Origin: Rhodopseudomonas sp.
GTDB taxonomy: Bacteria; Pseudomonadota; Alphaproteobacteria; Rhizobiales; Xanthobacteraceae
Direction of reading: 5' to 3'
Length of the DNA stretch: 64,000 nucleotides
Assembly (NCBI RefSeq): GCF_013377015.1
Contig: NZ_JACABA010000004.1
Coordinates: forward strand, 200,336-264,335
Shown: piece after piece, positions 1 to 32,769 of the stretch
Layout: each line of letters opens with the position of its first letter
How positions within the stretch are numbered: position 1 is the stretch's first letter
Translations under genes and position numbers: made by a program
The notes under the pieces: generated by a model
Told to the model about the DNA's origin: nothing
Databases searched by the model: none
The model's input: only the letters and a program-made list of their open reading frames with translations

Positions 1-1865
1 GCCAGCATCAGTTCGATGGCGTCGGTGGCCTCGGCGACCGAGCCGGTCGAGGTGTCGATCGTGAGCTCGTTGCCGACCGGCGGCTGATAGTCATTGCCGA
101 TGCCGGTAAAGCCCTTCAACGCGCCAGCGCGGGCCTTGGCGTAGTGGCCCTTGGGATCGCGGCTCTCGCACACCTCGGCGGGGGTCGCGACGTGGATTTC
201 GCGAAACAGCTCGGCGGCGATCCGCCGCGCCGCGGCGCGATCCTCCAGCGCTGGCGATACCGCCGCGACGATCGCGATGTGTCCATTCCTGGCCAGATGC
301 GTTGCAATCTCGGCGAGGCGACGGATGTTCTCGGCGCGATCTTCGGCCGAGAAGCCGAGATCGGCATTGAGCCCGGCGCGCAGCGTGTCGCCATCGAGCA
401 GGATCGGCGAACCGCCGCGCGAAAACAATCGACGCTCCAGCGCCAGCGCCAGCGTCGATTTGCCGGAGCCGGGCAGGCCGGTCAGCCACACCACCGCGCC
501 GCCATGGCGATAGCGCGCCAAGCGCTCGTCCGGTCGCAGCGCCGACTCCACCGGCACGATATCGACGGGAATTGCGCGTGCGCCGGCATCGACGCTGAGC
601 ACCAGCCCGCCGCCGGCGATCCGGCCGCCGACCTCGATCACCAGTCGTCCGGTGCGCGGATTGTCGCTTGCCGGGTCGGCTGCCACCGGCTGCGCCAGCG
701 CGATGTCGATCTCGCCGACATGATTGCGCGCGATCGCCTTGGCGGCGACGCTTTCGAGATCGCCGGGATCGACCGCTTTCTCGATCGCCACCACGGTGGC
801 GCGGGTTTCCCGCGTGCCGAGCCGCAGCAGGATCGAGGCGCCGGGCAGCAGCGGCTGATCATGCAGCCAGAAGATCCGCGCCCGCAGCCGTCGCGTGTCG
901 CGCGGCGCCGCGCCGACATGGGCAATGACGTCGCCGCGCTCGATGAACAATTCGCGATCCAGCGTGATGCCGACCGAGCGGCCGGCGCCTTGCGGTCCGC
1001 TCACCGGCGTCACCGGCCAGCTCTCGACCGATTTGATCCTCGCGATCTTGCCGGCCGGCATGATCACGATCTCGTCGCCGGTTTGCAGTTGGCCGGATTC
1101 AATGCGGCCGGCGACGATGCGGCGGTCGTCGAATTTGTAGATCGCCTGCACCGGCAGCCGGAGGGCCAATTGATCGAGTGGCCGCGCCGGGATCAGTGCG
1201 TCGAGCGCTTCCACCACGGTGGGGCCGTCGTACCAGGCGATATTCGCGGTGCGTTCGGCGACGCCGTCGCCGTCGCGCGCCGAGATCGGGATCACCGCGG
1301 CCGGCGTGACGCCGAGTTCGATCAGATGCGCCGAGATTTCGTCGCTGATTTCGCGGAATCGCGCTTCCGAGAAATCCACCCGATCCATCTTGTTGACCAC
1401 CACGGCGACCTGCTTGACCCCGAGCAGATGCAGCAGATAGCCGTGCCGCCTTGTCTGGTCGCGCACGCCTTCCAGCGCGTCGATGATCAGCACCGCGCCG
1501 TCGGCCTGCGAGGCGCCGGTGATCATGTTGCGCAGGAATTCGGCGTGGCCCGGCGCGTCGATCAGCACGATGTCGCGCGAGCCGGTACGGAACGAGATCT
1601 GTGTGGTGTCGATGGTGATGCCCTGGTCGCGCTCGGTCTGCAGCGCGTCGAGCAGGAACGACCATTCGAACGGCATGCCGCGCCGGGCGCTGACGGCTTT
1701 CAGCATTTCCAGCTTGCCATCCGGCAGCGAGCCGGTCTCGTGCAGCAGCCGGCCGACCAGCGTCGACTTGCCGTGATCGACATGGCCGACGATGACGATG
1801 CGGACCAGCGGACGGGTGGTGCCGTTCGGCGTGGCGAGGGAAGCGGGCGGGACGGCGATGGTCAT
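1..1865 (-). CDS. cysNC: CysNC, bifunctional sulfate adenylyltransferase large subunit / APS kinase (3' end outside window)
   Basis: The GTPase subunit of ATP sulfurylase (CysN) is fused to adenylylsulfate kinase (CysC), so the protein activates sulfate to APS and phosphorylates it to PAPS in the cytoplasm. In the minus-strand translation the GTPase motifs are GHVDHGKST (about residues 27-35), DAPGH (103-107) and NKMD (158-161), followed by EF-Tu-like beta-barrel domains. A second P-loop, GLPGSGKS (about 453-460), and LDGDTLR mark the CysC domain. About 621 codons are visible and the stop lies beyond position 1. The ATG at 1865 is chosen because the ATG at 1870 runs into a stop after two codons. 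It follows cysD by 23 bp, so the two are probably co-transcribed. The fusion and motifs are seen directly; function follows from the family. Confidence 0.96.
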   Translation of the reverse strand, partial: MTIAVPPASLATPNGTTRPLVRIVIVGHVDHGKSTLVGRLLHETGSLPDGKLEMLKAVSARRGMPFEWSFLLDALQTERDQGITIDTTQISFRTGSRDIVLIDAPGHAEFLRNMITGASQADGAVLIIDALEGVRDQTRRHGYLLHLLGVKQVAVVVNKMDRVDFSEARFREISDEISAHLIELGVTPAAVIPISARDGDGVAERTANIAWYDGPTVVEALDALIPARPLDQLALRLPVQAIYKFDDRRIVAGRIESGQLQTGDEIVIMPAGKIARIKSVESWPVTPVSGPQGAGRSVGITLDRELFIERGDVIAHVGAAPRDTRRLRARIFWLHDQPLLPGASILLRLGTRETRATVVAIEKAVDPGDLESVAAKAIARNHVGEIDIALAQPVAADPASDNPRTGRLVIEVGGRIAGGGLVLSVDAGARAIPVDIVPVESALRPDERLARYRHGGAVVWLTGLPGSGKSTLALALERRLFSRGGSPILLDGDTLRAGLNADLGFSAEDRAENIRRLAEIATHLARNGHIAIVAAVSPALEDRAAARRIAAELFREIHVATPAEVCESRDPKGHYAKARAGALKGFTGIGNDYQPPVGNELTIDTSTGSVAEATDAIELML

Positions 1866-1888
1866 GGCATCACTCACTTGAGGTCTCG

Positions 1889-2788
1889 TCACAGATAGCC
1901 GGCGACGCGAAGCCGCTCGAAGGCGTCCTCGGTCTCGTGGTCGAGCGCGCGGCCGGCGCGTTCCGGCACCTTGGTGCTGTCGAGTTCGGTCAGGATCTCG
2001 TCGATGTTGGAGGCATTCGACGCCACCGGATTGGTGATGTCGGCATCGCCCAGAGAGCGATAGCGCTTGCCGTTCTGTGCCAGGTACAACGGGATGATCG
2101 GGATGTTTTCGCGCTTGGTGTAGGCCCAGATGTCGGCCTCGGTCCAATGCAGGATCGGATGAATCCGCAAGTGAGCGCCGGGCGGCGGCGAGGCGTTGAA
2201 CTGGTCCCAGAATTCCGGCGGCTGGTCGCGGACGTCCCATCCGCCCTCGGTGCCGCGCGGCGAAAACACCCGCTCCTTGGCCCTTGTGGCTTCCTCGTCG
2301 CGGCGAATGCCGGCGATCAGCCCGTCGAAACCGTATTTGGCCAGCGCCAGCTTCAGCCCTTCGGTCTTGCGTGCGGCGGAGCGGGCGGCGGGCGGCAACG
2401 TCGGATCGATGCTCTCCAGCGGCGGGCAGTAATCGACCTTGAGATCGAGGTCCCATTCCTTGGCGTATTGATCGCGGAACGCATACATCTCCGGAAATTT
2501 CTTGCCGGTGTCGACATGCAGCGCCGGGAACGGCACCTTGCCGAAGAACGCCTTGCGCGCCAGCCAGATCATCACATTGGAATCTTTGCCGAGCGACCAC
2601 AGCAGCGCCAGCTTCTTCAGCCGCGCGAAACCTTCACGGAAAATGTAGATGCTCTGGGCTTCCAGTGCGTCGAGGTGATCCATCCCGGGCGCCGCCAAAA
2701 ATTCCTGACGCGGCGGCGCGGGCAGGCCCGGAACGCTGCCCTCGCGGTGCAACGGCTGGCCGCGATGATCGTTGCTGAGAAGGTTCAT
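1889..2788 (-). CDS. cysD: CysD, sulfate adenylyltransferase small subunit
   Basis: CysD is the ATP pyrophosphatase-type catalytic subunit of ATP sulfurylase; it pairs with CysN to make APS from sulfate and ATP. The 299-residue product carries the PP-loop SLGKDS at residues 65-70 and the typical MDHLDALEAQSIYI region before it. The C-terminus (HETEDAFERLRVAGYL) is family-typical. The ATG at 2788 has a GGAAG ribosome-binding sequence. An internal Met at residue 36, where many CysD proteins begin, is the alternative, so the first 35 residues may be an extension. It is the first gene of the leftward cysD-cysNC operon and diverges from cysG across a 144-bp regulatory region. Confidence 0.95.
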   Translation of the reverse strand: MNLLSNDHRGQPLHREGSVPGLPAPPRQEFLAAPGMDHLDALEAQSIYIFREGFARLKKLALLWSLGKDSNVMIWLARKAFFGKVPFPALHVDTGKKFPEMYAFRDQYAKEWDLDLKVDYCPPLESIDPTLPPAARSAARKTEGLKLALAKYGFDGLIAGIRRDEEATRAKERVFSPRGTEGGWDVRDQPPEFWDQFNASPPPGAHLRIHPILHWTEADIWAYTKRENIPIIPLYLAQNGKRYRSLGDADITNPVASNASNIDEILTELDSTKVPERAGRALDHETEDAFERLRVAGYL

Positions 2789-2932
2789 GTCTTCCGCTTG
2801 GCGTTTGAGGGTAAAAACTTCTACAGTTGCACTGCAATATAGAAGAAATAAATTTCTCTTTGCAGCGCTTGCAAGAGAGATATATAGAAAATAATTCTAG
2901 TCAACCCCAAGTTCGGGGGAGCGGAGCGGCGC
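2789..2932. promoter_or_regulatory. Divergent cysD/cysG control region with three dyad symmetries
   Basis: This 144-bp AT-rich stretch separates the two sulfate operons and must hold both promoters. Three inverted repeats are visible: TTGCA-C-TGCAA at 2827-2837; TCTCTTTGCA (2855-2864) against TGCAAGAGA (2870-2878), imperfect by one base; and TAGAA-N5-TTCTA near 2886-2900. A weak sigma70-like pair for cysG is TTGCAA (2869-2874) with TAATTC (2892-2897) at 17-bp spacing. The dyads are candidate operators for a sulfur-responsive regulator; which one is not known from this sequence. Confidence 0.55.
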
Positions 2933-4360
2933 ATGCGATATCTGCCGGTGTTTCTCGATCTACGGACCGGACCGATTCTATTGATCGGTGCGGGCGAGCT
3001 CGTGCGCGCCAAGCTGCGGCTGCTGCTGTCGGCCGGCGCGCGGATTCGCTGGTACGCGATTGACGGCGATCATGAGCTTGGCGGTGTTACGCGGGAGCAG
3101 GCCGCGCGGATCGAGCGCGGCGCCGGCGATCCGCTTGCGGCCGATTTGTCCGGCGTGATCGCGGTGCTGTGCGCGGGCGCCGGCGACCTGGGACCGGCGA
3201 TGGCGGCGCGCGCCCGCGCGGTCGGGCTGCCGGTCAATGTGATGGACGATCTGGTCCATTCCAGTTTCATCTTTCCGGCGATCGTCGATCGCGGCGACGT
3301 CGTGGTGGCGATCGGCACTGGTGGATCGTCGCCGGTGTTGGCGCGGCGTATCCGCGAACAGATCGAGGCGCTGCTGCCGGCGCGGATCGGCGATCTGGCG
3401 AATTTCATCGGCCGCTTTCGCAAGACCTTCAATACGCGGATCGCCCAGTTTCCGCTGCGCCGCCGGTTCTGGGAACGGGTCGTTGATGGGCCGATCGGCG
3501 CGTTGGTGCTGGCCGGCCGCGAGGCCGAGGCCGAATATGAACTCACAGGCATCGTCGATCCGTCGCGTTATGCCGGCGCGCAAGCGGCCGGCGCCGAGGG
3601 CCGCGTGACGCTGGTCGGCGCCGGACCGGGCGATCCGGATCTCTTGACCATCAAGGCGCTGCGCGCGCTGCAGGACGCCGACGTGGTGTTCTACGATGAA
3701 CTGGTGACGCCGGAAATTCTCGACCGCATTCGCCGCGATGCGTCGCTTGTGCCGGTCGGCCGTCGCGTCGGCAAACCCGGGATCGGGCAGGACGCCATCA
3801 ACACCTTGCTGATCGAAGCGGCGCAGGCCGGCCAGCGCGCGGTGCGGCTGAAGGGCGGCGATCCGTTCGTGTTCGGCCGCGGCGGTGAGGAAGTGCAGGC
3901 GCTGCGCGATGCCGGCGTCGCCTATTCGGTGATCCCGGGGATCAGCGCCGGGCTCGGCGCCGCCGCGCAATTCGAGGTGCCGCTGACCTATCGTCACGAG
4001 GCGCTGCGCATCACCTTCCTCACCGCTCATAAAGCGAAGGACGCCGACACCGTCGACTGGTCGACCCTCACCGACGTCAAGATGACGGTGGTGGTGTACA
4101 TGGGCATGACCGCGGCGCCCTCGGTGCTCGCCGGCTTGTTGAAGGCCGGGCGCTCGCCGCAGACGCCGGTCGGGGTGTTCGCCCGCGCGACGCGGCCCGA
4201 TGCCAAGGCCGCAGTCGGCACGCTGTCCGAACTGCCGGTGCTGGTCGAACAGGTCGATGGCGGGCCGGCGATCCTGATCATCGGCGACGTGGTCGCGCAT
4301 TCCGCGCCGTGGCGCGAAACCCAACTCCAACAACTCCTCATGCAGGTGGCTGCCGAATGA
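2933..4360 (+). CDS. cysG: CysG-type siroheme synthase (precorrin-2 dehydrogenase/ferrochelatase + uroporphyrinogen-III methyltransferase)
   Basis: This multifunctional enzyme makes siroheme, the prosthetic group of the CysI sulfite reductase encoded next door. The N-terminal part (about residues 1-210) starts with a Rossmann NAD-binding segment (VFLDLRTGPILLIGAGELVRAKL) typical of precorrin-2 dehydrogenase/ferrochelatase. The C-terminal part (from about residue 222) begins VTLVGAGPGDPDLLT, the signature of SUMT methyltransferases, and contains the KGGDPFVFGRGGEE loop. At 475 aa it has full CysG length. The ATG at 2933 has a purine-rich GGGGGAGCGGAG site upstream. The stop overlaps the next start as ATGA, implying translational coupling. 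Confidence 0.95.
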   Translation: MRYLPVFLDLRTGPILLIGAGELVRAKLRLLLSAGARIRWYAIDGDHELGGVTREQAARIERGAGDPLAADLSGVIAVLCAGAGDLGPAMAARARAVGLPVNVMDDLVHSSFIFPAIVDRGDVVVAIGTGGSSPVLARRIREQIEALLPARIGDLANFIGRFRKTFNTRIAQFPLRRRFWERVVDGPIGALVLAGREAEAEYELTGIVDPSRYAGAQAAGAEGRVTLVGAGPGDPDLLTIKALRALQDADVVFYDELVTPEILDRIRRDASLVPVGRRVGKPGIGQDAINTLLIEAAQAGQRAVRLKGGDPFVFGRGGEEVQALRDAGVAYSVIPGISAGLGAAAQFEVPLTYRHEALRITFLTAHKAKDADTVDWSTLTDVKMTVVVYMGMTAAPSVLAGLLKAGRSPQTPVGVFARATRPDAKAAVGTLSELPVLVEQVDGGPAILIIGDVVAHSAPWRETQLQQLLMQVAAE

Positions 4361-4671
4361 CCTCTCCGCTGCAACAGAAGATCAAGATCACCGGACCCTC
4401 GGTGGTGACCGCGAACCGCACCTGGGACGGCGTGGTGATCTGGCGCACCAATGCGAAGGACTGGTCGACCGATCTGGCCGACGCCGCGATCGTGCGCACC
4501 GCCGACGCTGCGCGCGCTTTGCTGGGTGAATCGGTGGCCGACGATCTCGGCGCGGTCGGCGCCTATATCGCGCCGGTCGAGGTCGATGAGTCCGGCGCGA
4601 TCAAGCCCGGCAATCTGCGCGAGCAGATCCGGGTCGACGGCGTCACCATCGAATTGCCGGCTCACGCGTAA
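4357..4671 (+). CDS. DUF2849 small protein of the sulfite reductase operon
   Basis: A 104-residue soluble protein of the DUF2849 family. It starts at an ATG that overlaps the cysG stop (ATGA, 4357-4360); a longer in-frame reading from 4309 exists but lies inside cysG. There are no membrane segments or cysteines. The sequence has the motif ANRTWDGVVIWRT near the N-terminus and a C-terminal half about polarity and charge rather than catalysis. The family is known from alphaproteobacterial cys operons between cysG and cysI, so a helper role in sulfite reductase assembly or regulation is the natural inference. No biochemical function is established. Confidence 0.88.
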   Translation: MTSPLQQKIKITGPSVVTANRTWDGVVIWRTNAKDWSTDLADAAIVRTADAARALLGESVADDLGAVGAYIAPVEVDESGAIKPGNLREQIRVDGVTIELPAHA

Positions 4672-4683
4672 GGCCTTTTGCAA

Positions 4684-6339
4684 ATGTATGCTTATGATGA
4701 AATCGACCGCACCCTGATCAACGAGCGGGTCAGCGAATTCCGCGACCAGGTCAAGCGCCGGCTCAGCGGCGAACTCTCGGAAGATGAGTTCAAGATGATC
4801 CGTCTGATGAACGGCGTCTATCTGCAGCTGCACGCCTATATGTTCCGGGTCGCGATCCCCTACGGCACGCTGTCGTCGGCGCAGCTGCGCAAGCTGGCGC
4901 ATGTCGCGCGCAAATACGACCGCGGCTACGGCCATTTCACCACGCGGCAGAACATCCAGTTCAACTGGATCAAGCTCGCCGACCTGCCGGACGCGCTGGC
5001 CGATCTCGCCGAGGTCGGCATCCACGCGATGCAGACCTCCGGCAACTGCACTCGTAACATCACCGCAGATCAATGGGCCGGCGTCGCGCCCGGCGAGGTC
5101 GAGGATCCGCGGATCTGGGCCGAACTGCTGCGGCAATATTCGACGCTGCATCCGGAATTCTCGTTCCTGCCGCGCAAGTTCAAGTTCGCCATCACCGCGT
5201 CGGCGCACGACCGCGCCGCGATCAAGGTCCACGACATCGGGCTGCGGCTGCATCGCAATGACAAGGGTGAAACCGGCTTCGAGGTACTGGTCGGCGGCGG
5301 GCTCGGCCGCACCCCGTTCATCGGCAAGACCATCCGGGAATTCGTGCCGGGCCGCGATCTGCTCAGCTATGTCGAGGCGATCCTGCGCGTCTACAACCAG
5401 TACGGCCGTCGCGATAATATCTACAAGGCGCGGATCAAGATCCTGGTGCACGAGCTCGGCATCGAGAAGTTCGCCGAGGAAGTCGAGACCGAGTGGCTGC
5501 AGATCCGCGATTCCACGCTGGCGCTGGACGCCGCCGTGGTCGAGGACATCCGCTCGCGCTTCAGCTATCCGGCCTATGAGAAACTCGCGCCGATGCCGGA
5601 CGAACTGAAGCAGGCCGCGGCTGATCCGCAGTTCGAGGCCTGGCGGACGAATTCGGTCGCGCCGCACAAGGTGCAAGGCTATGCGATCGTGACGCTGTCG
5701 CTGAAGCCGATCGGCGGGGCGCCGGGCGACGCCACCGCGGCTCAGATGGACGCTGTCGCCGACCTCGCCGACAAATATTCGTTCGGCGAAATCCGCGTCG
5801 GCCACGAGCAGAACCTGGCGTTCCCGCATGTCGCCAAGCGCGATTTGCCGGCGCTGTGGCGCGCGCTCGACAAGATCGGCGTCGCCACCCCGAACGTCAA
5901 TCTGGTCACCGACATCATTGCGTGCCCGGGACTGGACTACTGCTCGCTCGCCAATGCGCGCTCGATCCCGATCGCGCAGGAGCTGACGCGGCGCTTTGCC
6001 AATCACGACACCGCCAATCTGATCGGCCGGCTGCACGTCAATATCTCCGGCTGCATCAATGCCTGCGGCCATCACCATGTCGGCAACATCGGCATTCTCG
6101 GCGTCGAGAAGAACGGCGAGGAAGTCTATCAGATCACCATCGGCGGCCGCGCTGACGAGAACGCCGAACTCGGCAAGCTGATCGGGCCGGCGGTGCCTTA
6201 TGCCGAAGTCGCCGATGTGGTCGAAGACATCGTCGAGGCCTACCTCGCGCTGCGCGAACGGCCCGATGAGCTATTCATCGATGCCGTGAAGCGGCTGGGC
6301 GTCGAGCCATTCAGGGAGCGCGTCTATGCCACTCGTTAA
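4684..6339 (+). CDS. cysI: CysI-type siroheme/[4Fe-4S] sulfite (nitrite/sulfite) reductase
   Basis: This enzyme reduces sulfite to sulfide by six electrons using siroheme coupled to a [4Fe-4S] cluster. The 551-aa protein shows the duplicated ferredoxin-like halves of the family: TSGNCTRN in the first half, and the cluster ligands CPGLDYC (C-x5-C) and GCINACGHH (C-x3-C) in the second. An ATG at 4684 (MYAYDE) is preferred over a TTG two codons upstream. There is no flavoprotein subunit (CysJ) gene in the operon, so ferredoxin is the likely electron donor (inference). The gene overlaps the following DUF934 gene by 14 bp. Confidence 0.94.
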   Translation: MYAYDEIDRTLINERVSEFRDQVKRRLSGELSEDEFKMIRLMNGVYLQLHAYMFRVAIPYGTLSSAQLRKLAHVARKYDRGYGHFTTRQNIQFNWIKLADLPDALADLAEVGIHAMQTSGNCTRNITADQWAGVAPGEVEDPRIWAELLRQYSTLHPEFSFLPRKFKFAITASAHDRAAIKVHDIGLRLHRNDKGETGFEVLVGGGLGRTPFIGKTIREFVPGRDLLSYVEAILRVYNQYGRRDNIYKARIKILVHELGIEKFAEEVETEWLQIRDSTLALDAAVVEDIRSRFSYPAYEKLAPMPDELKQAAADPQFEAWRTNSVAPHKVQGYAIVTLSLKPIGGAPGDATAAQMDAVADLADKYSFGEIRVGHEQNLAFPHVAKRDLPALWRALDKIGVATPNVNLVTDIIACPGLDYCSLANARSIPIAQELTRRFANHDTANLIGRLHVNISGCINACGHHHVGNIGILGVEKNGEEVYQITIGGRADENAELGKLIGPAVPYAEVADVVEDIVEAYLALRERPDELFIDAVKRLGVEPFRERVYATR

Positions 6340-6841
6340 CAAGGGACAGATCGTCAGCGACGGCTTCGTGCATCTGGCCGACGACGCGAAACTGCCGTCC
6401 GACGGCGCCGTGCTGGTGTCGGCGACGCGATTTCTCGCCAATGCGGAATCGCTGTCGGCGCGCAACAGTCCGGTCGGAGTGATCTGGCCGAACAACCGTA
6501 GCGTCGACGAGCTGGCGCCGTGGCTGGACCGGCTGGCCGCGGTGGCGCTGGTGTTTCCGACCTTCCGCGACGGTCGCGCGCACAGCCAGGCCCGGCTGTT
6601 GCGCGAGCGTCACCATTATCGGGGAGAATTGCGCGCCACCGGGCAGGTGCTGCGCGACCAGTTCACCTTCCTGCTGCGCAACGGCTTCGACAGTTTTGAG
6701 GTGAAGAAGGACAGCGACGCTCACGCCTTCGCGGAGGCGACGCAGCGCTACACCGAGTTCTATCAGCCGACCGGCGACGGCCGGCAGACCGCCTTGGAGC
6801 GCCGGCTTCGCCAGCGCCATTCCGAAAGCGCCAATTCATGA
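6326..6841 (+). CDS. DUF934 protein, sulfite reductase-associated
   Basis: A 171-residue protein of the DUF934 family, regularly encoded between cysI and cysH in proteobacteria. Recognisable segments are GVIWPNNRSVDELAPWLDRL, the FPTFRDGRAHSQARLLRERH block and GQVLRDQFTFLLRNGFDSFE. There is no signal peptide, membrane helix or metal-binding cysteine. It overlaps cysI by 14 bp and cysH by 4 bp (ATGA), so it is translated with them. The conserved RDGR...RLRERHxYxGELRATG core suggests a compact alpha/beta fold. The biochemical role is unknown; a function in sulfite reduction is inferred from context only. Confidence 0.9.
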   Translation: MPLVNKGQIVSDGFVHLADDAKLPSDGAVLVSATRFLANAESLSARNSPVGVIWPNNRSVDELAPWLDRLAAVALVFPTFRDGRAHSQARLLRERHHYRGELRATGQVLRDQFTFLLRNGFDSFEVKKDSDAHAFAEATQRYTEFYQPTGDGRQTALERRLRQRHSESANS

Positions 6842-7575
6842 GCGAACTCGTGCAACCGCTGTCGCAACCGGCCGCACCGACGGCGCAAGAGCTGACCGCA
6901 CGCGAGCTCGATGCCGCGCTGCGCGCGGCGTCGCCTGCGGAGGTAATCGCGGCGGCGTTGCGCCATCTCGGTCGCGACAGGCTGGCGCTGGTGTCGTCGT
7001 TCGGCACCGAATCCGCCGCGCTGCTGAAAGTGATGGCCGATGTCGACCCTTCGATTCCCGTGATCTTTCTCGATACCGGCTGGCTGTTCGAGGAGACGCT
7101 GGCCTATCGCGACACCCTGATCGCCACGCTCGGCCTCACCGACGTCCGCTCGATCAAGCCGCTCGAGGAGAATCTAAACCGCGACGATCCGGAGCGGGAA
7201 TTATGGTTCTCCGATCCGGATAAATGCTGCGCGATCCGCAAGGTCGAGCCGTTGTCGCGCGCCCTTGCGCCGTTCAGCGGCTGGATCAACGGCCGCAAAC
7301 GGTTTCAGGGCGGGCTGCGTGCCGACATTCCGGTGGTCGAGGCCGACGGCGCGCGATTGAAATTCAATCCCTTCGCCAACGTCTCGCGCGAGGAGATCGC
7401 GGCGATCTACACGCTGGCGAAACTGCCGCCGCACCCGCTGGCGGCGTCCGGATTTCTCTCGGTCGGCTGCATGCCGTGCACCAGTCGCGCCGAGTCGAAT
7501 GAGGACGCGCGCGCCGGACGATGGCGCGGAAAGGCCAAGACGGAATGCGGCATCCACACCATGAAGATTTCGTAG
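6838..7575 (+). CDS. cysH: CysH, assimilatory adenylylsulfate (APS) reductase with Fe-S motif
   Basis: Thioredoxin-dependent reductase converting APS (or PAPS) to sulfite. The 245-aa protein has the PP-loop-like SSFGTESAALL, the DTGWLFEET motif, the KCC pair (about residue 130), GCMPC near the C-terminus and the catalytic ECGIH motif. The CC...CxxC set binds a [4Fe-4S] cluster in APS reductases and is absent from enterobacterial PAPS reductases, so APS is the likely substrate. The ATG overlaps the DUF934 stop by 4 bp. It is the last gene of the cysG-cysH block; 122 bp separate it from the transporter genes. Confidence 0.94.
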   Translation: MSELVQPLSQPAAPTAQELTARELDAALRAASPAEVIAAALRHLGRDRLALVSSFGTESAALLKVMADVDPSIPVIFLDTGWLFEETLAYRDTLIATLGLTDVRSIKPLEENLNRDDPERELWFSDPDKCCAIRKVEPLSRALAPFSGWINGRKRFQGGLRADIPVVEADGARLKFNPFANVSREEIAAIYTLAKLPPHPLAASGFLSVGCMPCTSRAESNEDARAGRWRGKAKTECGIHTMKIS

Positions 7576-7600
7576 CACAACGCTGTCGCAACTAACCGAA

Positions 7601-7621
7601 CAACGAAATGCCGTTTCGTTG
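7601..7621. repeat. Inverted repeat between cysH and sbp
   Basis: A perfect 8-bp dyad, CAACGAAA and TTTCGTTG with a 5-nt centre, lies 26 bp after the cysH stop and about 77 bp before sbp. There is no T-run after it, so it is not a standard terminator. It could be an operator for the transporter operon or an mRNA hairpin. Confidence 0.45.
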
Positions 7622-7697
7622 ACTAGCGCGCGCTTCTCCGGGAGTTTCGGCCCTTCGCCGTCGATGACATGGTGTCGTCCGGCCAATGGAGATTAAG

Positions 7698-8687
7698 ATG
7701 ATCCGTCGTCTTGTTCCCGTGCTTGCGGGACTGATCTGGGCAGGCTCGGCGTTCGCCGCGGACGTATCGCTGCTCAACGTGTCGTATGATCCGACCCGCG
7801 AACTCTATACCGATTTCAACAAGTCGTTCGCGGCGGCCTATCAGAAGGAATCCGGCAAGAGCGTCGAGATCAAGCAGTCGCATGGCGGCTCGGGCTCGCA
7901 GGCGCGCTCGGTGATCGACGGGTTGCAGGCCGACGTGGTGACGCTGGCGCTGGCCTATGACATCGACGCCATCGCCAACAAGGGCCTGCTGGCGAAGGAC
8001 TGGCAGAAGCGTCTGCCGCAGAACGCATCGCCTTACACTTCGACCATCGTGTTCCTGGTCCGCAAGGGCAACCCGAAGGGCATCAAGGACTGGGACGATC
8101 TGATCAAGTCCGGCGTCAGCGTGATCACGCCGAATCCGAAAACCTCGGGCGGCGCACGCTGGAACTATCTGGCGGCCTGGGGCTATGCGCTGAAGAAATC
8201 CGGCTCGCAGGAAGGCGCGCGGGACTTCGTCGCCAGTATTTACAAGAACGTGCCGGTGCTGGATACCGGCGCGCGCGGTTCGACCGTAACCTTCGTCGAG
8301 CGCGGCGTCGGCGACGTGCTGCTGGCCTGGGAAAACGAGGCGTTCCTCGCGGTCAAGGAATTCGGCAAGGACAAGTTCGAGATCGTGGCGCCTTCCGTCT
8401 CGATCCTGGCCGAGCCGCCGGTCGCGGTGGTCGACAAGGTGGTCGACACCAAGGGAACCCGGGCGGTCGCCGAGGCCTATCTGAAGCACTGGTACACCCA
8501 GGAAGGCCAGGAAATCGCCGCCCGCAATTTCTACCGCCCTCGGGATGCCGAAATTGCCAAGAAGTATACGAACGCATTCGCCAAGGTTGAGCTGTTCACC
8601 ATCGACGACGTGTTTGGCGGCTGGACCAAGGCGCAGACCGAGCACTTCGCCGAAGGCGGCGTGTTCGACAAGATCTACAAGAACTGA
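7698..8687 (+). CDS. sbp: Sulfate ABC transporter periplasmic substrate-binding protein
   Basis: Periplasmic receptor that delivers sulfate (or thiosulfate) to the CysTWA importer. The 329-aa precursor has a classical signal peptide ([20 protein letters not shown], cleavage before ADVSLL) and family blocks such as [45 protein letters not shown] and [17 protein letters not shown]. The ATG at 7698 is chosen over the upstream in-frame ATG at 7686 because GGAG at 7688-7691 fits as its ribosome-binding site and the signal peptide starts there. A strong hairpin follows the stop, as is common after binding-protein genes. Confidence 0.95.
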
Positions 8688-8707
8688 TCGCGAAATGAAG
8701 CGAGACG

Positions 8708-8731
8708 CCCAGGCCGGACCCCCGGCCTGGG
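8708..8731 (+). terminator. Stem-loop between sbp and cysT (likely transcript-stabilising or partial terminator)
   Basis: A perfect 10-bp GC-rich stem (CCCAGGCCGG / CCGGCCTGGG) with an ACCC loop lies 20 bp after the sbp stop and is not followed by a U-run. Such hairpins after binding-protein genes commonly protect the upstream mRNA or reduce read-through, which gives more SBP than permease. The structure is seen; the role is inferred. Confidence 0.6.
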
Positions 8732-8747
8732 AACTGAAGGGGCGAAT

Positions 8748-9584
8748 GTGAGCGCGGCATCCAGACGAAGTGCATTGCCGGGATTCGGGCTCACCATGGG
8801 CCTGACCCTGACCTGGCTGTCGCTGCTGATCCTGCTTCCGCTCGCCGGGCTGTTCGTCAAGACCGCCGAGCTGAGCCTGTCGCAGTTCATCGACATCGTC
8901 ACCAGCGCGCGGACCCTGCACGCGCTGAAGATTTCGTTCGGGCTGGCGTTCGCCGCGGCGCTGGTCAATCTGGTCGCCGGGCTGATCATCGTCTGGGCGC
9001 TGGTACGCTACCGGTTTCCCGGCCGTCGCATCTTCGACGCCATCGTCGACATTCCGTTCGCGCTGCCGACCGCGGTGGCCGGCATCGCGCTGACCACATT
9101 GTTCGCGCAGAAGGGCTGGCTCGGCGCGCCGCTGGCGGCGCTCGGCATCAAGGTGGCGTTCACCCCGCTTGGCATTTTCATCGCGATGATCTTCATCGGG
9201 ATTCCGTTCGTGGTGCGCACCGTGCAGCCGGTGCTGATCGATCTCGACGTCGACATCGAGGAGGCGGCGGAGTGCCTCGGCGCCAATCGCTGGCAGACCA
9301 TCACCAGGGTGATCTTGCCGAGTCTGACGCCGGCGATCCTGACCGGCTTTGCGCTGGCGTTCGCGCGTGCGGTCGGCGAATACGGCTCGGTGATCTTCAT
9401 CGCCGGCAACCTGCCAAACGTCTCGGAGATCGCGCCGCTGTTGATCGTGATCCGGCTGTCGGAGTTTCGCTACGCCGACGCCACCGCGATTGCGGTGGTG
9501 ATGCTGGTGGTGTCGTTTCTGATCATTTTTCTATTGAACCGGCTGCAGCGCTGGGCGCAGACCCGCGCTTTGGCCGTGAGTTGA
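8748..9584 (+). CDS. cysT: CysT (CysU), sulfate ABC transporter permease
   Basis: Inner-membrane permease subunit of the sulfate importer. The 278-aa protein has about six hydrophobic segments and the binding-protein-dependent transport loop ...EEAAECLGANRWQTITRVILPSLTPAI (EAA motif, around residues 168-196) that docks on CysA. The start is a GTG at 8748 with AAGGGG just upstream; no better ATG is available without losing the first transmembrane segment. It is followed 6 bp later by cysW. Confidence 0.95.
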   Translation: MSAASRRSALPGFGLTMGLTLTWLSLLILLPLAGLFVKTAELSLSQFIDIVTSARTLHALKISFGLAFAAALVNLVAGLIIVWALVRYRFPGRRIFDAIVDIPFALPTAVAGIALTTLFAQKGWLGAPLAALGIKVAFTPLGIFIAMIFIGIPFVVRTVQPVLIDLDVDIEEAAECLGANRWQTITRVILPSLTPAILTGFALAFARAVGEYGSVIFIAGNLPNVSEIAPLLIVIRLSEFRYADATAIAVVMLVVSFLIIFLLNRLQRWAQTRALAVS

Positions 9585-9590
9585 CGTGAC

Positions 9591-10514
9591 ATGACGATGG
9601 CGACGACATCCAGCGCGACCCCGGTCGCAACCACGGCGGCGGCGCAGCCCGTGACCGCCAACGCGATTCGGCTGGCGCAGCGCGATGCCCATACCGAACC
9701 GCGCCTGGTGCGCGGCATCGTGATCGGCCTCGCGCTCACCTTCCTGTCGATCTTCGTGGTGCTGCCGCTGCTGCTGGTGTTCGCCGAGGCGTTCTCCAAG
9801 GGCTTCGGATTCTATCTCTCGGCATTGAGTGACCCCGAGGCGCTGTCGGCGATCTGGCTGACGCTGGTCACCGCGGCGATCTCGGTCGGCCTCAATCTGG
9901 TGTTCGGGGTGGCGGCGGCCTGGGCGATCGCGAAATTCGAATTCCGCGGCAGGACCGTACTGATCACGCTGATCGATCTGCCGTTCTCGGTCAGTCCGGT
10001 GATCTCCGGCCTGGTGTTCGTGCTGCTGTTCGGCGCGCAGGGCTATTTCGGGCCGTGGCTGATGGCGCACGGCATCCATATCCTGTTCGCGGTGCCGGCG
10101 ATCGTGCTGGCGACCACCTTCGTGACGTTCCCCTTTGTGGCGCGCGAGCTGATTCCGCTGATGCAGGAGCAGGGCCAGCAGGAAGAGGAAGCCGCAATTT
10201 CGCTCGGCGCGCGCGGCTGGCAGACCTTTTTGAAGGTGACGCTGCCGAACATCAAATGGGGCCTGCTGTACGGTGTTCTGCTGTGTAATGCGCGCGCGAT
10301 GGGCGAGTTCGGCGCGGTCTCGGTGGTGTCTGGCCATATCCGCGGCGAGACCAACACTATGCCGCTGCTGGTCGAGATTCTCTATAATGAGTACCAGCTC
10401 GTCGCGTCGTTCGCGATCGCGTCGCTGCTGGCGTTTCTGGCTCTGGTCACGCTGATTGCGAAGACCGTGCTGGAAGGTCAGATCGAGGAAGGACGGCACG
10501 TCAGTGACGATTGA
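9591..10514 (+). CDS. cysW: CysW, sulfate ABC transporter permease
   Basis: Second permease subunit of the sulfate importer, forming a heterodimer with CysT. The 307-aa protein has a cytoplasmic N-terminal segment of about 45 residues rich in Thr/Ala, then six predicted membrane segments, and the EAA loop [27 protein letters not shown]. The C-terminal block [22 protein letters not shown] is typical of CysW. ATG at 9591 or the ATG two codons later could be the start. The 3' end overlaps cysA by 11 bp, indicating coupled translation. Confidence 0.94.
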
Positions 10515-27241: not shown

Positions 27242-28762
27242 CTACTTGGCGGCGGGCAGCAGTTTGGCGAAGTCGCCGTCGAGCGAGGCCAGCGCGGCGT
27301 CGATCCGGCCGCGCCGTTCGTCGATCCAGCCGCTCTGCGCCGTCAGCGTCTGCTTGGCGGCGCTCAACATCCGGCCCATTTCGGCGGGCTGCGGTCCACC
27401 GGCGGTGGCGCGGTTGCGGACGATGGCGACGGGGTCCAGCGTCGCGCGGAATTCCGCCTCGCTGATCGGCAGCGCGCCGCCGTCCAGCTTCATCTCCGCC
27501 AGCGTCTTGGCGTAGATGCGCTGCGCCTCCGCATAGGGGAAATCGGTCGGCTTGATGTTGTTGGCCTTGGCGTAGTCGACGATCTCGGACGCGAAATGAT
27601 GGCCGGCGCGGAACGGCAGCCGATATTTGCGCATCAGCAGGTCGGCGAGCTCCTGCGAGGCGGTCCAGTCGCTGTTCAACTCCTCCAGCGCCCGCTCCGG
27701 GCTGATCACCAGCGCGTTCAGGATGCGATCCCAACTTTGTAGCATCCGCGTGGCGCCTGCGATCACCGCGACATTGTCCTTGACGCTCTTGGCGTCGGAC
27801 ATGCCGGGCGGAATATTGTGGGCTTCGATCGCACGCCCGATGCCGAGTGCGATCACCATCGAGGCCTGGGCGCGGGTGTCGTTCAACAGGCCGGGGTTGC
27901 GCTTCTGCGGCATCGCGCTGGAGACATAGGTGTTGCCGCCGCCCTCCTGCAGCAGGATCCAGGGTCGCGGCTGCGCGTATTGGGTCATGACGTCCTGGAC
28001 GAAGGCGCCGGTGTGGAGCGCAATGCTGGTGGCCAGCGCGCCGATCTCGACCGGCATCTCGGTGGCGAGGATTTGGGCTGCGTCATAGGCGTTGTCGACC
28101 GTGGCGGAGAAGCCGAGATAATTCGCCATGCGGTCGCGGTTCAGCGGCCAGCTGGTGCCGTTCAGCACCGTGGTGCCCATCGCCGAGCGGTCGAGCCTTG
28201 CATAGGCCTCGCGCAGCCGCTGCGCGTCGCGCTCCAGCCCCGCGACATGGCCGAGCAGATAATGGCCATAGCTGTTGGGCTGCGCGGCGACGCCGTTGGT
28301 GTAGTTCGGCACGATGGTGCCGACATTGGTCTCGGCCAGCCGGACCATCGAGGCGGTGGTGGCGTTGATTTGTGCTGCCAGCTTCAGCACCTCGTCGCGC
28401 ATGATCGCGGCGCGGACAGTGGCGAGCATGTCCTGACTGGAGCGGCCGGCGTGCAGCAGCGTCGCCTCGACGCCCGCGGCGGCGATCAAAAGCGGCTCGA
28501 AGGTGATGACCAAAGTGGGGCGGCTGGCGCCGGGCTGTGCGCCGGCCTTCAGCATGGTGTCGAGCCCGGCGGCGATCCGCGGCGCGATGGCGCGGTCCAG
28601 CAGGCCTTGCTCGGTGTTGATGACGGCGCTGGCCTTGTTGATCTCGCCGAGCCAGAAGAAGTCGTCGCGGCCCGGCGCGGCCGGCGCCGGCTGCTGGGCG
28701 AAGGCGGGAAGCGCGGCGACGGTCAGTACAACGGCTGCGACGCAGGTGTTGAACTTCGACAT
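27242..28762 (-). CDS. Periplasmic lyase of the argininosuccinate lyase/fumarase superfamily
   Basis: A 506-residue protein with a cleavable signal peptide (MSKFNTCVAAVVLTVAALPAFA, then QQPAPAAPG). The superfamily signature is SSAMPQKRNPGLLND (about residues 279-293), a variant of GSSxMPxKxN, with the catalytic-loop serine expected in this stretch; other conserved segments are LNGTSWPLNRDRMANYLGF and the multi-helix bundle. Characterised ASL, fumarase, adenylosuccinate lyase and CMLE enzymes are cytoplasmic, so an exported member is unusual. The substrate cannot be told; a C-N or C-O beta-elimination is expected. Copies of a small gene lie on both sides. Confidence 0.88.
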   Translation of the reverse strand: MSKFNTCVAAVVLTVAALPAFAQQPAPAAPGRDDFFWLGEINKASAVINTEQGLLDRAIAPRIAAGLDTMLKAGAQPGASRPTLVITFEPLLIAAAGVEATLLHAGRSSQDMLATVRAAIMRDEVLKLAAQINATTASMVRLAETNVGTIVPNYTNGVAAQPNSYGHYLLGHVAGLERDAQRLREAYARLDRSAMGTTVLNGTSWPLNRDRMANYLGFSATVDNAYDAAQILATEMPVEIGALATSIALHTGAFVQDVMTQYAQPRPWILLQEGGGNTYVSSAMPQKRNPGLLNDTRAQASMVIALGIGRAIEAHNIPPGMSDAKSVKDNVAVIAGATRMLQSWDRILNALVISPERALEELNSDWTASQELADLLMRKYRLPFRAGHHFASEIVDYAKANNIKPTDFPYAEAQRIYAKTLAEMKLDGGALPISEAEFRATLDPVAIVRNRATAGGPQPAEMGRMLSAAKQTLTAQSGWIDERRGRIDAALASLDGDFAKLLPAAK

Positions 28763-29389: not shown

Positions 29390-30424
29390 ATGAATAGAAT
29401 AGCAAGAACCAGCCTGTCGCGGCGTTCCCTGCTCGGCGGCATCATGTCGTCGACCGCCGCCAGCAGCTTCGCCATCGCGCAGGGGCGCGAGAAAGTCACG
29501 TTCGGCACCAGCTGGCTGGCCCAGGCCGAACATGGCGGCTACTACCAGGCGCTGGCCGACGGCACCTATGACCGCTTCGGTCTGGACGTGACCATCCTTC
29601 CGGGTGGCCCACAGAACAACAATCGCCGACTGCTGTCCGCAGGGCGGATCGACTTCTGCATGGGATCGAACCTGCTGCAGGCGTTTTCAGCCGTCGAGCA
29701 GAATATTCCCACGGTGGTCGTGGCCGCGATGTTCCAGAAGGATCCGCAGGTCCTGATTGCCCATCCCGGCCAGGGTATCGAACAGTTCTCCGACCTGCAG
29801 ACGCTGCCGACACTGTTCATCTCGAAAGAGGGCGCGATCTCCTATTTCCAGTGGCTGAAGAAGGACTATGGCTTCCGCGACGAGCAACTGAAGCTCTACA
29901 CGTTCAACCCGCAGCCGTTTATCGCCGACAAGCGCTCGGCCATGCAGGGCTACCTGACGTCGGAGCCGTTCAGCATCCAGCGGATGGCGGGATTCCAGCC
30001 GAAGGTGTTCCTGCTCGCCGATTACGGCTACGACACCTATGCCAGCACCATCGAGACCACCTCGCGGCTGGTGAAGGAGCGCCCTGCGACCTGCCAGAAA
30101 TTCATCGAGGCGTCGATCGCCGGCTGGTACAACTATCTCTACGCCGACAATTCCGCCGCCAATGCCCTGATCAAGAAGCACAACACGGAGATCAGCGACG
30201 ACGCTATCGCCTATGCGGTCGGCCAGATCAAGGCGCAGGGTATCGTCGATTCAAACCAAACGAATATTTCCGGCATCGGTGCCATGGACGAGGCCCGGGT
30301 GAAAAGCTTCTTCGACCGCATGGTTCGCGCCGGGGTCCAAACGCCCGCCATCGACTGGCGGCACGCGGTCGACACGCGCTTCGTCAACAAGGGGTTTGGA
30401 ATGGAGTTGCGCAGGCCGATCTGA
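29390..30424 (+). CDS. Orphan ABC-type substrate-binding protein (NMT1/THI5-like), Tat-exported
   Basis: A 344-residue periplasmic binding protein. The N-terminus carries a twin-arginine motif (SRRSLLGGI, about residues 10-18) and a signal sequence ending around SFAIAQG. The mature part has the SsuA/NMT1 fold pattern: KVTFGTSWLAQAEHGGYYQALADGTYDRFGLDVTILPGGPQNN, GRIDFCMG and LTSEPFSIQ. Such proteins bind sulfonates, nitrate, taurine or pyrimidine precursors. No permease or ATPase gene follows; it is instead near an FMN reductase and an ATP-grasp ligase. The ATG at 29390 has a GAG upstream; an earlier in-frame start (29336) would displace the Tat signal. Confidence 0.88.
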   Translation: MNRIARTSLSRRSLLGGIMSSTAASSFAIAQGREKVTFGTSWLAQAEHGGYYQALADGTYDRFGLDVTILPGGPQNNNRRLLSAGRIDFCMGSNLLQAFSAVEQNIPTVVVAAMFQKDPQVLIAHPGQGIEQFSDLQTLPTLFISKEGAISYFQWLKKDYGFRDEQLKLYTFNPQPFIADKRSAMQGYLTSEPFSIQRMAGFQPKVFLLADYGYDTYASTIETTSRLVKERPATCQKFIEASIAGWYNYLYADNSAANALIKKHNTEISDDAIAYAVGQIKAQGIVDSNQTNISGIGAMDEARVKSFFDRMVRAGVQTPAIDWRHAVDTRFVNKGFGMELRRPI

Positions 30425-30426
30425 CC

Positions 30427-30457
30427 GTCGGGATGTCACCGGCGCCAGCATCCCGAC
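30427..30457 (+). terminator. Stem-loop after the binding-protein gene
   Basis: Perfect 9-bp arms, GTCGGGATG and CATCCCGAC with a 13-nt loop, start 2 bp after the stop codon. There is no T-tract directly after. It may terminate transcription or stabilise the binding-protein mRNA. Confidence 0.55.
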
Positions 30458-30570
30458 CCGTCCCGTACTATTAAGGAATACTTTGTTAACCAAATCTTGT
30501 TCCCTGCGGCGTAGGACGGCAGGACAGCAACGTGTCGGCACCGTCCGACCTACCCGAACTGGAGATTCCA

Positions 30571-30753
30571 ATGGGAATGTCGATCGGCGCCAGCCGGGGC
30601 TTTTCGGCCCAGGTCTCGCGCCCGGTTTCGCAGCCCGCCCCGCCGCCGTCACCGCCGGCCGATTCGAAGGCATCCTCGGCCAGCGGCGACGCCTTGGTGG
30701 CAAGCCTCCTTGCCGACAGCGGCATCGGCTCGCAGGTCAACAAGACCGCCTGA
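30571..30753 (+). CDS. Micro-ORF: Pro/Ser-rich 60-residue peptide upstream of FMN reductase and ATP-grasp genes
   Basis: A 60-residue peptide starting MGMSIGASRGF with a GGAG site six bases before the ATG (30561-30564). A Pro-rich linker (PVSQPAPPPSPPADSK) divides a short N-terminal part from the C-terminal core GDALVASLLADSGIGSQVNKTA. There are no cysteines or membrane segments. The layout (leader, linker, short core, next to a ligase gene) resembles a peptide precursor or a small chaperone-like partner, but no family is recognised. A GTG at 30532 is an alternative start. Confidence 0.5.
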   Translation: MGMSIGASRGFSAQVSRPVSQPAPPPSPPADSKASSASGDALVASLLADSGIGSQVNKTA

Positions 30754-30763
30754 CGCCGGAGAC

Positions 30764-30796
30764 GGGCGAACGCGAGCAGGGTCGTTCCGCTCGCCC
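30764..30796 (+). terminator. Weak stem-loop after the micro-ORF
   Basis: GGGCGAACG and CGCTCGCCC pair with one mismatch, followed by TTCTG. It lies between the micro-ORF and the FMN reductase gene, so it is a possible partial terminator. Confidence 0.35.
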
Positions 30797-30832
30797 TTCT
30801 GCCGCACCCCGCCAGGGTGATTGACTTTAACC

Positions 30833-31471
30833 ATGCAAGATCAGGCGCCTGCCATTCCGGACCGTCGCGTCGACTCAGTTCCGCGCCTGTTGCTGTTTTC
30901 CGGCAGCCTGCGCCGCGAATCACACCAAAGCCGCTTGCTACGACATTTTGTATCGGTGCTCGGCTCCGCATGCGACATCGACATGCTGACACCGGCCGAC
31001 GTCGACCTGCCGCTGTTCGATCAGGATCTCGAGCAATCCGAACTCGTGCTGGCCAAGGTCATCGGCCTTCACCACCGCTTTGAATCTGCCGACGGGCTCA
31101 TCGTCGCATCGCCGGAATACAACGGTCACGTGTCGTCCTATCTCAAGAATACAGTCGACTGGGTCTCGCGACTGCCGCGGATCGACTCCCGCTACGCCGC
31201 GCGCAATGCGTTTCACGGTCGGCCGCTGCTGCTGGCGAGCGCATCGACGGGGTGGACAGGCGGAATTCTCGGCCTGCAGAATGCGCGGTCGATCTTTTCC
31301 TATCTTGGCTGCACCGTCGTCGCCGACCAGATCTGCGTGTCCGACGCAGAGCAATGCATCGTCGACGATCGCTTTCGTTTCCACGACGGTTTCGCCGAAC
31401 ACATCGAGAACGTGCTGAAGCGGTTCGTCACGGTCGTCGAGAGCCTGCGTTCCGCGCGCGCCGCGGCCTGA
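30833..31471 (+). CDS. NAD(P)H-dependent FMN reductase (flavodoxin-fold)
   Basis: A 212-residue flavoprotein of the NADPH-dependent FMN reductase family: phosphate-binding loop LLLFSGSLRRESHQSRLLRHF, the SPEYNGHVSSYLKNTVDWVSR block that contacts the flavin, and ASTGWTGGILGLQNARSIFSYLG. It would supply reduced FMN or reduce a quinone/azo/organic substrate. The ATG at 30833 is preferred over a TTG four codons earlier. It is followed 50 bp later by the ATP-grasp ligase gene; together with the binding protein this may be a small-molecule uptake and modification cluster (inference). Confidence 0.92.
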   Translation: MQDQAPAIPDRRVDSVPRLLLFSGSLRRESHQSRLLRHFVSVLGSACDIDMLTPADVDLPLFDQDLEQSELVLAKVIGLHHRFESADGLIVASPEYNGHVSSYLKNTVDWVSRLPRIDSRYAARNAFHGRPLLLASASTGWTGGILGLQNARSIFSYLGCTVVADQICVSDAEQCIVDDRFRFHDGFAEHIENVLKRFVTVVESLRSARAAA

Positions 31472-31521
31472 CGACGGAACGCCGCGGCAGCGATCCAAAT
31501 TCAGCCAACGGAGCCGCATGC

Positions 31522-32769
31522 ATGGCACATCTCCTGCTCCTTGAAGTTCCCGGCGGTAACGATTTCGCGTTGCTGGAGGATGCCGTCGCCGCGGGCCACG
31601 ACGTCACCTTCGTGACCGCCGACCTTGCCCACTATCGCTCGCAGGGCGAGGCGACCCTGGCCGCGCTGGCGCAGGCCCGCGAGGTCATCGAGGTCGCCCC
31701 CTTCACCTACCCACAGCTCGAGCAGGCCGCACTCGCGCTGCACGCGCGCCGGGCCGTCGACGCCATCCTCTGCCTGATCGACATTCGCCTGGTGGAGGCC
31801 AGCCTGCTGGCTGAGAAACTGGATCTGCGGTTCTTGAACCCCGCAACGACCAGGCTGATGCGCGACAAGGTCAGCGTGCGCCAGACCCTGGCGCGCAAGG
31901 GGATCCGGCAGCCGAAATTCGCTCTCGCCGAGAGCGCCGATCAGGTGCACGCCGCCGTGCTGCAAATCGGATTCCCGGTGCTGGTGAAGCCCGCCGACGG
32001 CTACGGATCGCAGAACGTCAATGTGGTCGAGTCGAAGGAAGAACTGGAGCGGCTGCTCGAATTGCTGGACGGGCTCACCGCGCATCCCATCGACTACGGC
32101 CTCGGCGTCCAGGCCAACAACCGCTATTCGGTCGAGCAATACATCCGCGGCAGCATGATCGGCTGCGACGTTTTTTCCAACACGCAGGAGCGAGTCCTGC
32201 TGGGGATCAACGACAAGCTGATGTTCCCGCCGCCGTCGTTTGCCATTCGCGGCAGCTGCTTTCCTTCGGCGCGATACGATACGACGGCCATCAAAGACTA
32301 TGCCTTCCAGATCCTCGACGCGGTGAATTTCGATTTCGGCGCCGCGCATATCGAGATGATCGTCGCCGACGACGGGCCGTATCTGGTCGAGGTCAATCCG
32401 CGGCTGGTCAGCGCCCAGATTCCCTATCAGATGGGCTATGCGCTGCAGCGTTCGATCAATCTGGATCTGATCGACCTGCATCTTGGCGCATCGCTCGCGG
32501 AATTGCGCGACATCCAGCCGCGTGCCTTTAGCGCCATCCGCTGGATGACCGCTGCGCGTGCGGGAACGCTGTCCTCCATCGACCTGCCGCAGCGGACCGG
32601 CGACGAGATCTGCAGGGTCGTGCTCTTCAAGAAGCCAGGCGATTTGGTGAAGCCGCCCCTGAGCAATGGTGACCGTATCGGATACGTGATCGCCACCGGC
32701 GCCACGCAGCTACTAGCGGAACAGGCTGCGGACCGATACGTTCACGACACCGATGTGGCGATCTTGTAG
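31522..32769 (+). CDS. ATP-grasp ligase (amino-acid/peptide ligase type)
   Basis: A 415-residue ATP-grasp enzyme. An N-terminal Rossmann-like pre-ATP domain is followed by the ATP-binding lid and loop (TTRLMRDKVSVRQTLARKGIRQPKFALAES; FPVLVKPADGYGSQNV, about 155-170) and the Mg-binding FGAAHIEMI...YLVEVNPRLVS segment. The C-terminal ~110 residues resemble those of L-amino acid ligases (BacD-type) and carnosine-synthase-like enzymes, which form acyl-phosphates for amide bond formation. Substrates are unknown. The start is ATG 31522 because the longer in-frame reading lies inside the FMN reductase gene. Confidence 0.9.
   Translation: MAHLLLLEVPGGNDFALLEDAVAAGHDVTFVTADLAHYRSQGEATLAALAQAREVIEVAPFTYPQLEQAALALHARRAVDAILCLIDIRLVEASLLAEKLDLRFLNPATTRLMRDKVSVRQTLARKGIRQPKFALAESADQVHAAVLQIGFPVLVKPADGYGSQNVNVVESKEELERLLELLDGLTAHPIDYGLGVQANNRYSVEQYIRGSMIGCDVFSNTQERVLLGINDKLMFPPPSFAIRGSCFPSARYDTTAIKDYAFQILDAVNFDFGAAHIEMIVADDGPYLVEVNPRLVSAQIPYQMGYALQRSINLDLIDLHLGASLAELRDIQPRAFSAIRWMTAARAGTLSSIDLPQRTGDEICRVVLFKKPGDLVKPPLSNGDRIGYVIATGATQLLAEQAADRYVHDTDVAIL

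Follow-up and report, generated by a model that had tools for sequence, protein, structure and literature searches.

Within the 64,000-nucleotide stretch of Rhodopseudomonas sp. contig NZ_JACABA010000004.1 analysed here (the window), a 60-codon open reading frame (ORF) at positions 30571–30753 of the forward strand is, by its conservation in other genomes, a real gene. Comparison of gene order showed that the micropeptide it encodes is linked across genomes to a protein of the NADPH-dependent flavin mononucleotide (FMN) reductase family and to an ATP-grasp ligase with a LAL_C2 domain, whose genes are found in the window on the same strand at 30833–31471 (212 residues) and 31522–32769 (415 residues). 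We favour, with middling confidence, a reading in which the three genes make up a small biosynthetic operon, a shorter version of one that has five genes elsewhere, and in which the peptide would be a carrier or precursor for the ligase. A sequence-only reading of the same DNA had described four co-directional genes at 29390–32769, an NMT1/THI5-like binding protein followed by these three, as a candidate uptake-and-ligation cluster. The coordinates and reading frames of the four were confirmed, and the half of that idea that paired peptide and ligase gained support, the peptide being conserved and linked to the ligase in other genomes.

To find relatives of the ligase, a collection with one genome per species was scanned for six exact 8-residue patterns, a procedure that reaches close relatives only; this gave seven loci, five of them close (L009 to L013) and two distant. 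The window peptide alone, searched by tblastn against eight loci, matched over its full length in L009 and L011 (E 8e-12 each) and in L010 (E 5e-7); these matches go beyond chance because the loci had been chosen solely for encoding the ligase. The peptides of L009, L010, and L011 have 56, 55, and 61 residues, respectively. A profile of these three and the window peptide, which recovers its own members by construction, detected one further copy of 55 residues in genome G342 (locus L049, E 4.4e-22), the only match at E up to 0.01 among nine additional genomes or records; G342 had been singled out earlier for carrying a piece of the ligase. No match was found in the plasmid records searched for the peptide. 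Homologues are present, then, in four genomes besides that of the window, all of 55–61 residues, starting with MGM and ending in the pattern G-x-x-V-N-x-x-A, and a Shine–Dalgarno-like site precedes all five genes (in the window, GGAG at 30561–30564, 6 nucleotides before the ATG). Residues M1, G2, M3, G6, A13, S16, P24, P26, P29, A41, L46, G53, V56, N57, and A60 are invariant across the five copies, so that the N-terminus and the C-terminus are conserved, the latter to the last residue, around a variable, Pro-rich middle. The micro-ORF showed no Pfam domain above cut-off.

In L009, L010, and L011 the gene order is the same: peptide, a ToxC-like WD40 protein of about 560 residues, FMN reductase, a ToxD-like protein of 340 residues, and ligase. 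In L049 the contig breaks off inside the reductase gene, after the peptide and the WD40 protein, the order being the same as far as it runs, and the C-terminal part of a ligase begins another contig of that genome (L047). In the window, peptide, reductase, and ligase follow one another in this order, without ToxC and ToxD. Identity to the window proteins across L009–L013 is 47–58% for the reductase and 51–66% for the ligase. A conserved short ORF beside a modifying enzyme, a feature of ribosomally synthesised and post-translationally modified peptides (RiPPs) or of carrier peptides, is present in five genomes. In the window, 79 nucleotides separate micro-ORF from reductase and 50 separate reductase from ligase; scans for promoters and terminators gave results near chance.

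Selection on the peptide was assessed by comparing L009 and L049, the two nearest copies. Across 55 codons their peptide genes show 9 synonymous and 4 non-synonymous differences, besides one in-frame 3-nucleotide indel. The synonymous rate (dS) was 0.26 and the non-synonymous rate (dN) 0.033, a dN/dS of about 0.13, and a one-sided Fisher test on the rounded substitution counts gave p 0.0006; the adjoining ToxC-like genes of the same pair showed a dS of 0.28 and a dN of 0.040. Since nucleotide identity in the peptide gene (0.923) is no higher than just upstream (0.945) or just downstream (0.934), the case for selection rests on the codon pattern. With homologues in four genomes and this excess of dS over dN, both the conservation and a codon pattern of the purifying selection that the sequence-only reading had named as its check were found.

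The ligase carries both domains of L-amino-acid-ligase-type enzymes, LAL_C2 (57.2 bits, cut-off 29.4) and ATP-grasp_4 (55.5 bits, cut-off 27), and the reductase matched FMN_red with 107.1 bits. Residues K116, K156, E278, E290, N292, and R294, which we take to be the ATP-grasp catalytic residues, are invariant across six aligned ligases. The AlphaFold2 model of the ligase reached a mean pLDDT (predicted local distance difference test) of 77.5, with the other four models at 54–60, and a pTM (predicted template-modelling score) of 0.80. Its nearest structures were the L-amino-acid ligases YwfE/BacD and BL00235 (E 1e-23 to 1e-22; template-modelling scores of 0.76–0.81 by query length); the second-ranked entry was a phosphoribosylglycinamide synthetase. 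Despite this shared fold and the LAL_C2 domain, the window ligase is only 16–19% identical to BacD/YwfE and BL00235, and it differs from them in its linkage to a conserved micropeptide. That both its family and its nearest folds are amide-forming L-amino-acid ligases supports the preferred reading. ATP-grasp ligases need no transfer RNA (tRNA).

On that reading, the ligase would activate a carboxylate as an acyl phosphate and form an amide bond involving the peptide. The bond would most likely lie at the conserved C-terminus, VNxxA, whose terminal carboxylate would be activated and joined to an amine; this end is proposed because conservation reaches the last residue and the peptide is linked to a carboxylate-activating ligase, which together suggest joining at the C-terminus. 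We infer in this way that the peptide is the substrate of the ligase and would serve as carrier or precursor for the assembly of an attached amino acid or heterocycle precursor. The FMN reductase would supply reduced flavin or reduce an intermediate, and the ToxC/ToxD pair, where present, would add an oxidative, perhaps N-N-forming, step, so that the window, lacking the pair, would yield a simpler product. The chemistry might also run in the other direction: removal of Met from the invariant MGM would expose Gly, and the peptide N-terminus would then act as the nucleophile.

There are precedents for building amino acids onto the C-terminal end of a small peptide, and PMC9303977 describes two that do so by other means, the peptide aminoacyl-tRNA ligases (PEARLs) and the amino-group carriers. 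The pearlins (3-thiaglutamate, 3-thiahomoleucine, ammosamide) presented there resemble the present case only in how it would work, a short peptide made by the ribosome neighbouring an enzyme that might lengthen it at the C-terminus. They differ in that no PEARL was found in the trio or among the ToxC/ToxD-like proteins (genes further off were partly scanned), and an ATP-grasp ligase is present instead. In the LysW-type amino-group carriers, according to the same paper, a small carrier protein has its C-terminal residue activated and joined to an amine; the window peptide would work in a similar manner, with VNxxA at its C-terminus in place of a C-terminal Glu.

Several observations weigh against the proposed operon. 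Loci L012 and L013 carry reductase and ligase with no recognisable peptide, the best genome-wide profile matches having E values of 0.0138 and 0.106 and none reaching 0.01, so reductase and ligase may be able to function in its absence. In the ligase and reductase trees the peptide carriers did not come out as a single group, a one-branch split appearing in 11% and 10% of bootstrap trees; both trees were poorly resolved and had a very long outgroup row, and the sole starred branch in each joined L012 and L013. The selection test is a single comparison between near relatives. In addition, the domain scan identified no protease, transporter, or RiPP recognition element (RRE) among the operon genes, no RRE-specific model having been run.

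A 41-codon ORF at 6860–6985 of L012 and L013, upstream of the reductase, has an end that is slightly peptide-like. It fell outside the 14 best of 794 small ORFs for either profile, and its alignment score of 27 ties with other ORFs there, the best of 469 null ORFs scoring 28. These two loci, contigs of differently named metagenome-assembled genomes, are base-for-base identical at 5800–7898 and diverge from 7899, by recent transfer or an assembly problem.

Among the other explanations, the one that survives best, which we regard as possible and still rather unlikely, makes the peptide an accessory (an activating, docking, or scaffold subunit) of a ligase that joins free small molecules as BacD does. 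The nearest solved folds, being those of dipeptide ligases, fit it, as do the missing peptide of L012 and L013 and the conservation of the whole N-terminus alongside the C-terminus. However, a peptide that is conserved through its final residue and variable in its Pro-rich middle suits the layout of a carrier or precursor at least as well. A classical RiPP precursor, with a product containing the modified C-terminal core and a ligase that makes a cross-link or an end cap, appears distinctly improbable. Such a short precursor-like ORF does head the operon in five genomes, and graspetides are made by ATP-grasp enzymes; yet few conserved side chains are available for cross-links, the window peptide has no cysteine, and the ligase is nearest to amino-acid ligases, although RimK matches it weakly over part of its length (34.9 bits, residues 114–181).

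Similarly low is the chance we give to the window trio being a remnant of the five-gene operon that lost its ToxC/ToxD core and makes no product any more. Neither gene is present in the window, and its genome (34 contigs, 99.98% complete) yielded no close homologue: no ToxC-like protein was detected in the rest of it, in a search run without a positive control, which weakens the point, and for ToxD the matches were all of the SUMF type and no higher than 68.6 bits. Against decay, the three ORFs are intact, their third-position GC is high like that of their neighbours, and the 79- and 50-nucleotide spacers hold no remnant of ToxC or ToxD.

The least probable explanation, and a very improbable one, is that of the sequence-only reading, in which the NMT1-like binding protein (29390–30424, forward strand; 344 residues, with SRRSLL near the start) imports the pathway substrate as part of the same unit: it lies on the same strand 146 nucleotides upstream of the micro-ORF, but homologues of it turn up in 199 of 248 family genomes (counting the window's own), against 1 of 296 for the ligase, and none was found beside other such clusters. 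Its Pfam NMT1 score (78.1 bits) exceeds the Pfam cut-off, as do the FMN_red, LAL_C2, and ATP-grasp_4 scores, and identity to homologues elsewhere reaches 64%. Peptide, reductase, and ligase were absent from all 19 fetched neighbourhoods of NMT1 homologues (about 1.5 kb on each side, the window's own left out), a search for the binding protein in L009–L013 was empty at E up to 1 (flanks of at most 8 kb, some shorter), and no permease or ATPase gene of an ATP-binding cassette importer was found among the 10 ORFs scanned between 24 and 41 kb of the window. The uptake half of the earlier idea fails because these homologues are widespread and not found beside other clusters; the binding protein probably does not belong to the unit, and of the proposed four-gene cluster what holds in other genomes is the link of the peptide to reductase and ligase.

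The identity of the two additional operon genes connects these loci to toxoflavin-type clusters. The 340-residue protein of L009–L011 is an FGE-sulfatase by Pfam, and its profile matched PDB entry 7spq, named ToxD, with 393.8 bits (next entry 103.2). The WD40 protein showed 46–54% identity over 99% of its length to proteins of nine plasmid records, eight of which are also among the 10 records with a ToxD-like protein. In the annotated regions, a ToxC/ToxD pair, or ToxD with a propeller protein, lies near genes for GTP cyclohydrolase II, RibD, a methyltransferase, VOC, or LuxI/R-type proteins in varying combinations, resembling the toxoflavin and pseudoiodinine clusters (ToxC/ToxD; PsdE/PsdC) as PMC5851621 and PMC9911603 present them. 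PMC9911603 proposes that a WD40 and/or SUMF-like protein forms the N-N bond of 1,6-didesmethyltoxoflavin, a step it terms unclear, and PMC12154649 cites Song et al. 2023 for ToxC as a proposed N-N-forming oxidase.

A ToxB-like protein (GTP cyclohydrolase II) was found in all seven toxoflavin-type loci and a RibD-like one (ToxE) in four of them, with no match to either in the window, L009–L013, L047, or L049. Conversely, searching G448, G964, and three toxoflavin-type plasmid records for the peptide gave nothing at E up to 0.01. The operon of L009, L010, and L011 thus shares its ToxC-like and ToxD-like proteins with the toxoflavin and pseudoiodinine clusters and differs from them in carrying the micropeptide and the ATP-grasp ligase, GTP cyclohydrolase II/RibD-like proteins not being found; the window has neither the ToxC/ToxD nor the ToxB/ToxE genes that mark a toxoflavin-type cluster. 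An FMN_red protein, 25–33% identical to the window reductase over part of its length, was present in at least two of the seven toxoflavin-type loci (L036 and L045), and a flavin reductase may therefore be a recurrent partner of ToxC/ToxD.

Some of these loci presented features of their own. L036 (NZ_CP026119.1, positions 1–8957) is a toxoflavin-type locus in a plasmid of a Gram-positive bacterium, Halobacillus, which also holds a second WD40 gene, a DUF692 gene, a pyridoxal phosphate enzyme, an aldo/keto reductase, and the FMN reductase. Locus L033 showed at 9000–9690 a ToxB-like match in two pieces where no gene is listed. At 12155–14042 of L045, beside the toxoflavin-type cluster, an FMN_red ORF lies with an opposite-strand ORF fusing GerE (LuxR-type) and FMN_red-like domains.

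The ligase was rarely encountered. In a sample of 61 genomes it had two matches, one in the window's own genome and one elsewhere at 29% identity; among 296 genomes of the family, and again among 385 of the class, the only match was the window's own. Sampling around G322 gave matches in 3 of 98 genomes, G322 among them, and sampling around G321 gave G321 alone out of 149. The ToxD-like protein turned up in 2 of 398 genomes from the phylum. These samples and that of the 248 family genomes overlap, and in the larger ones scoring covered some of the first-look candidates. Plasmid relatives of the ligase reached at most 32.6% identity among the best 20 of 34 records, and its profile found no relative in viral contigs. 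From these counts, the peptide/ligase system looks rare and scattered, a spread that would fit a mobile biosynthetic cluster.

No NCBIfam family reached its cut-off among the matches listed (for the ligase, the best 25 of 61 families). Because the best of these for the ligase was an argininosuccinate lyase subfamily (154.6 bits, far under its cut-off of 625), the fumarase/argininosuccinate-lyase-like gene at 27245–28762 on the reverse strand was considered, and it was discarded after no homologue appeared at E up to 0.01 in ten related loci. By eye, the N-terminus of its product looks like a signal peptide, which is unusual in that enzyme family.

No description of the combination of a peptide, an ATP-grasp enzyme, and WD40/SUMF proteins was found in the searches made of open-licence papers. 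More speculatively, and with doubt well outweighing belief, the loci could represent a new peptide-borne class of natural products, in which a tRNA-free ATP-grasp ligase would load a building block on the micropeptide, after which ToxC/ToxD would create the N-N linkage, either on the tethered substrate or on the Asn or Gly conserved in the peptide; the window lineage would have kept the loading and reduction steps only. ToxC/ToxD with an encoded peptide and a ligase, and without pyrimidine-making genes, would offer a testable system for N-N bond formation, since its substrate may be a peptide, open to expression and mass measurement. The finding contributes a family of micropeptides and a possible tRNA-free parallel to the pearlin carrier peptides, and the conserved micropeptide may be the tether or the raw material of an undescribed natural-product pathway.

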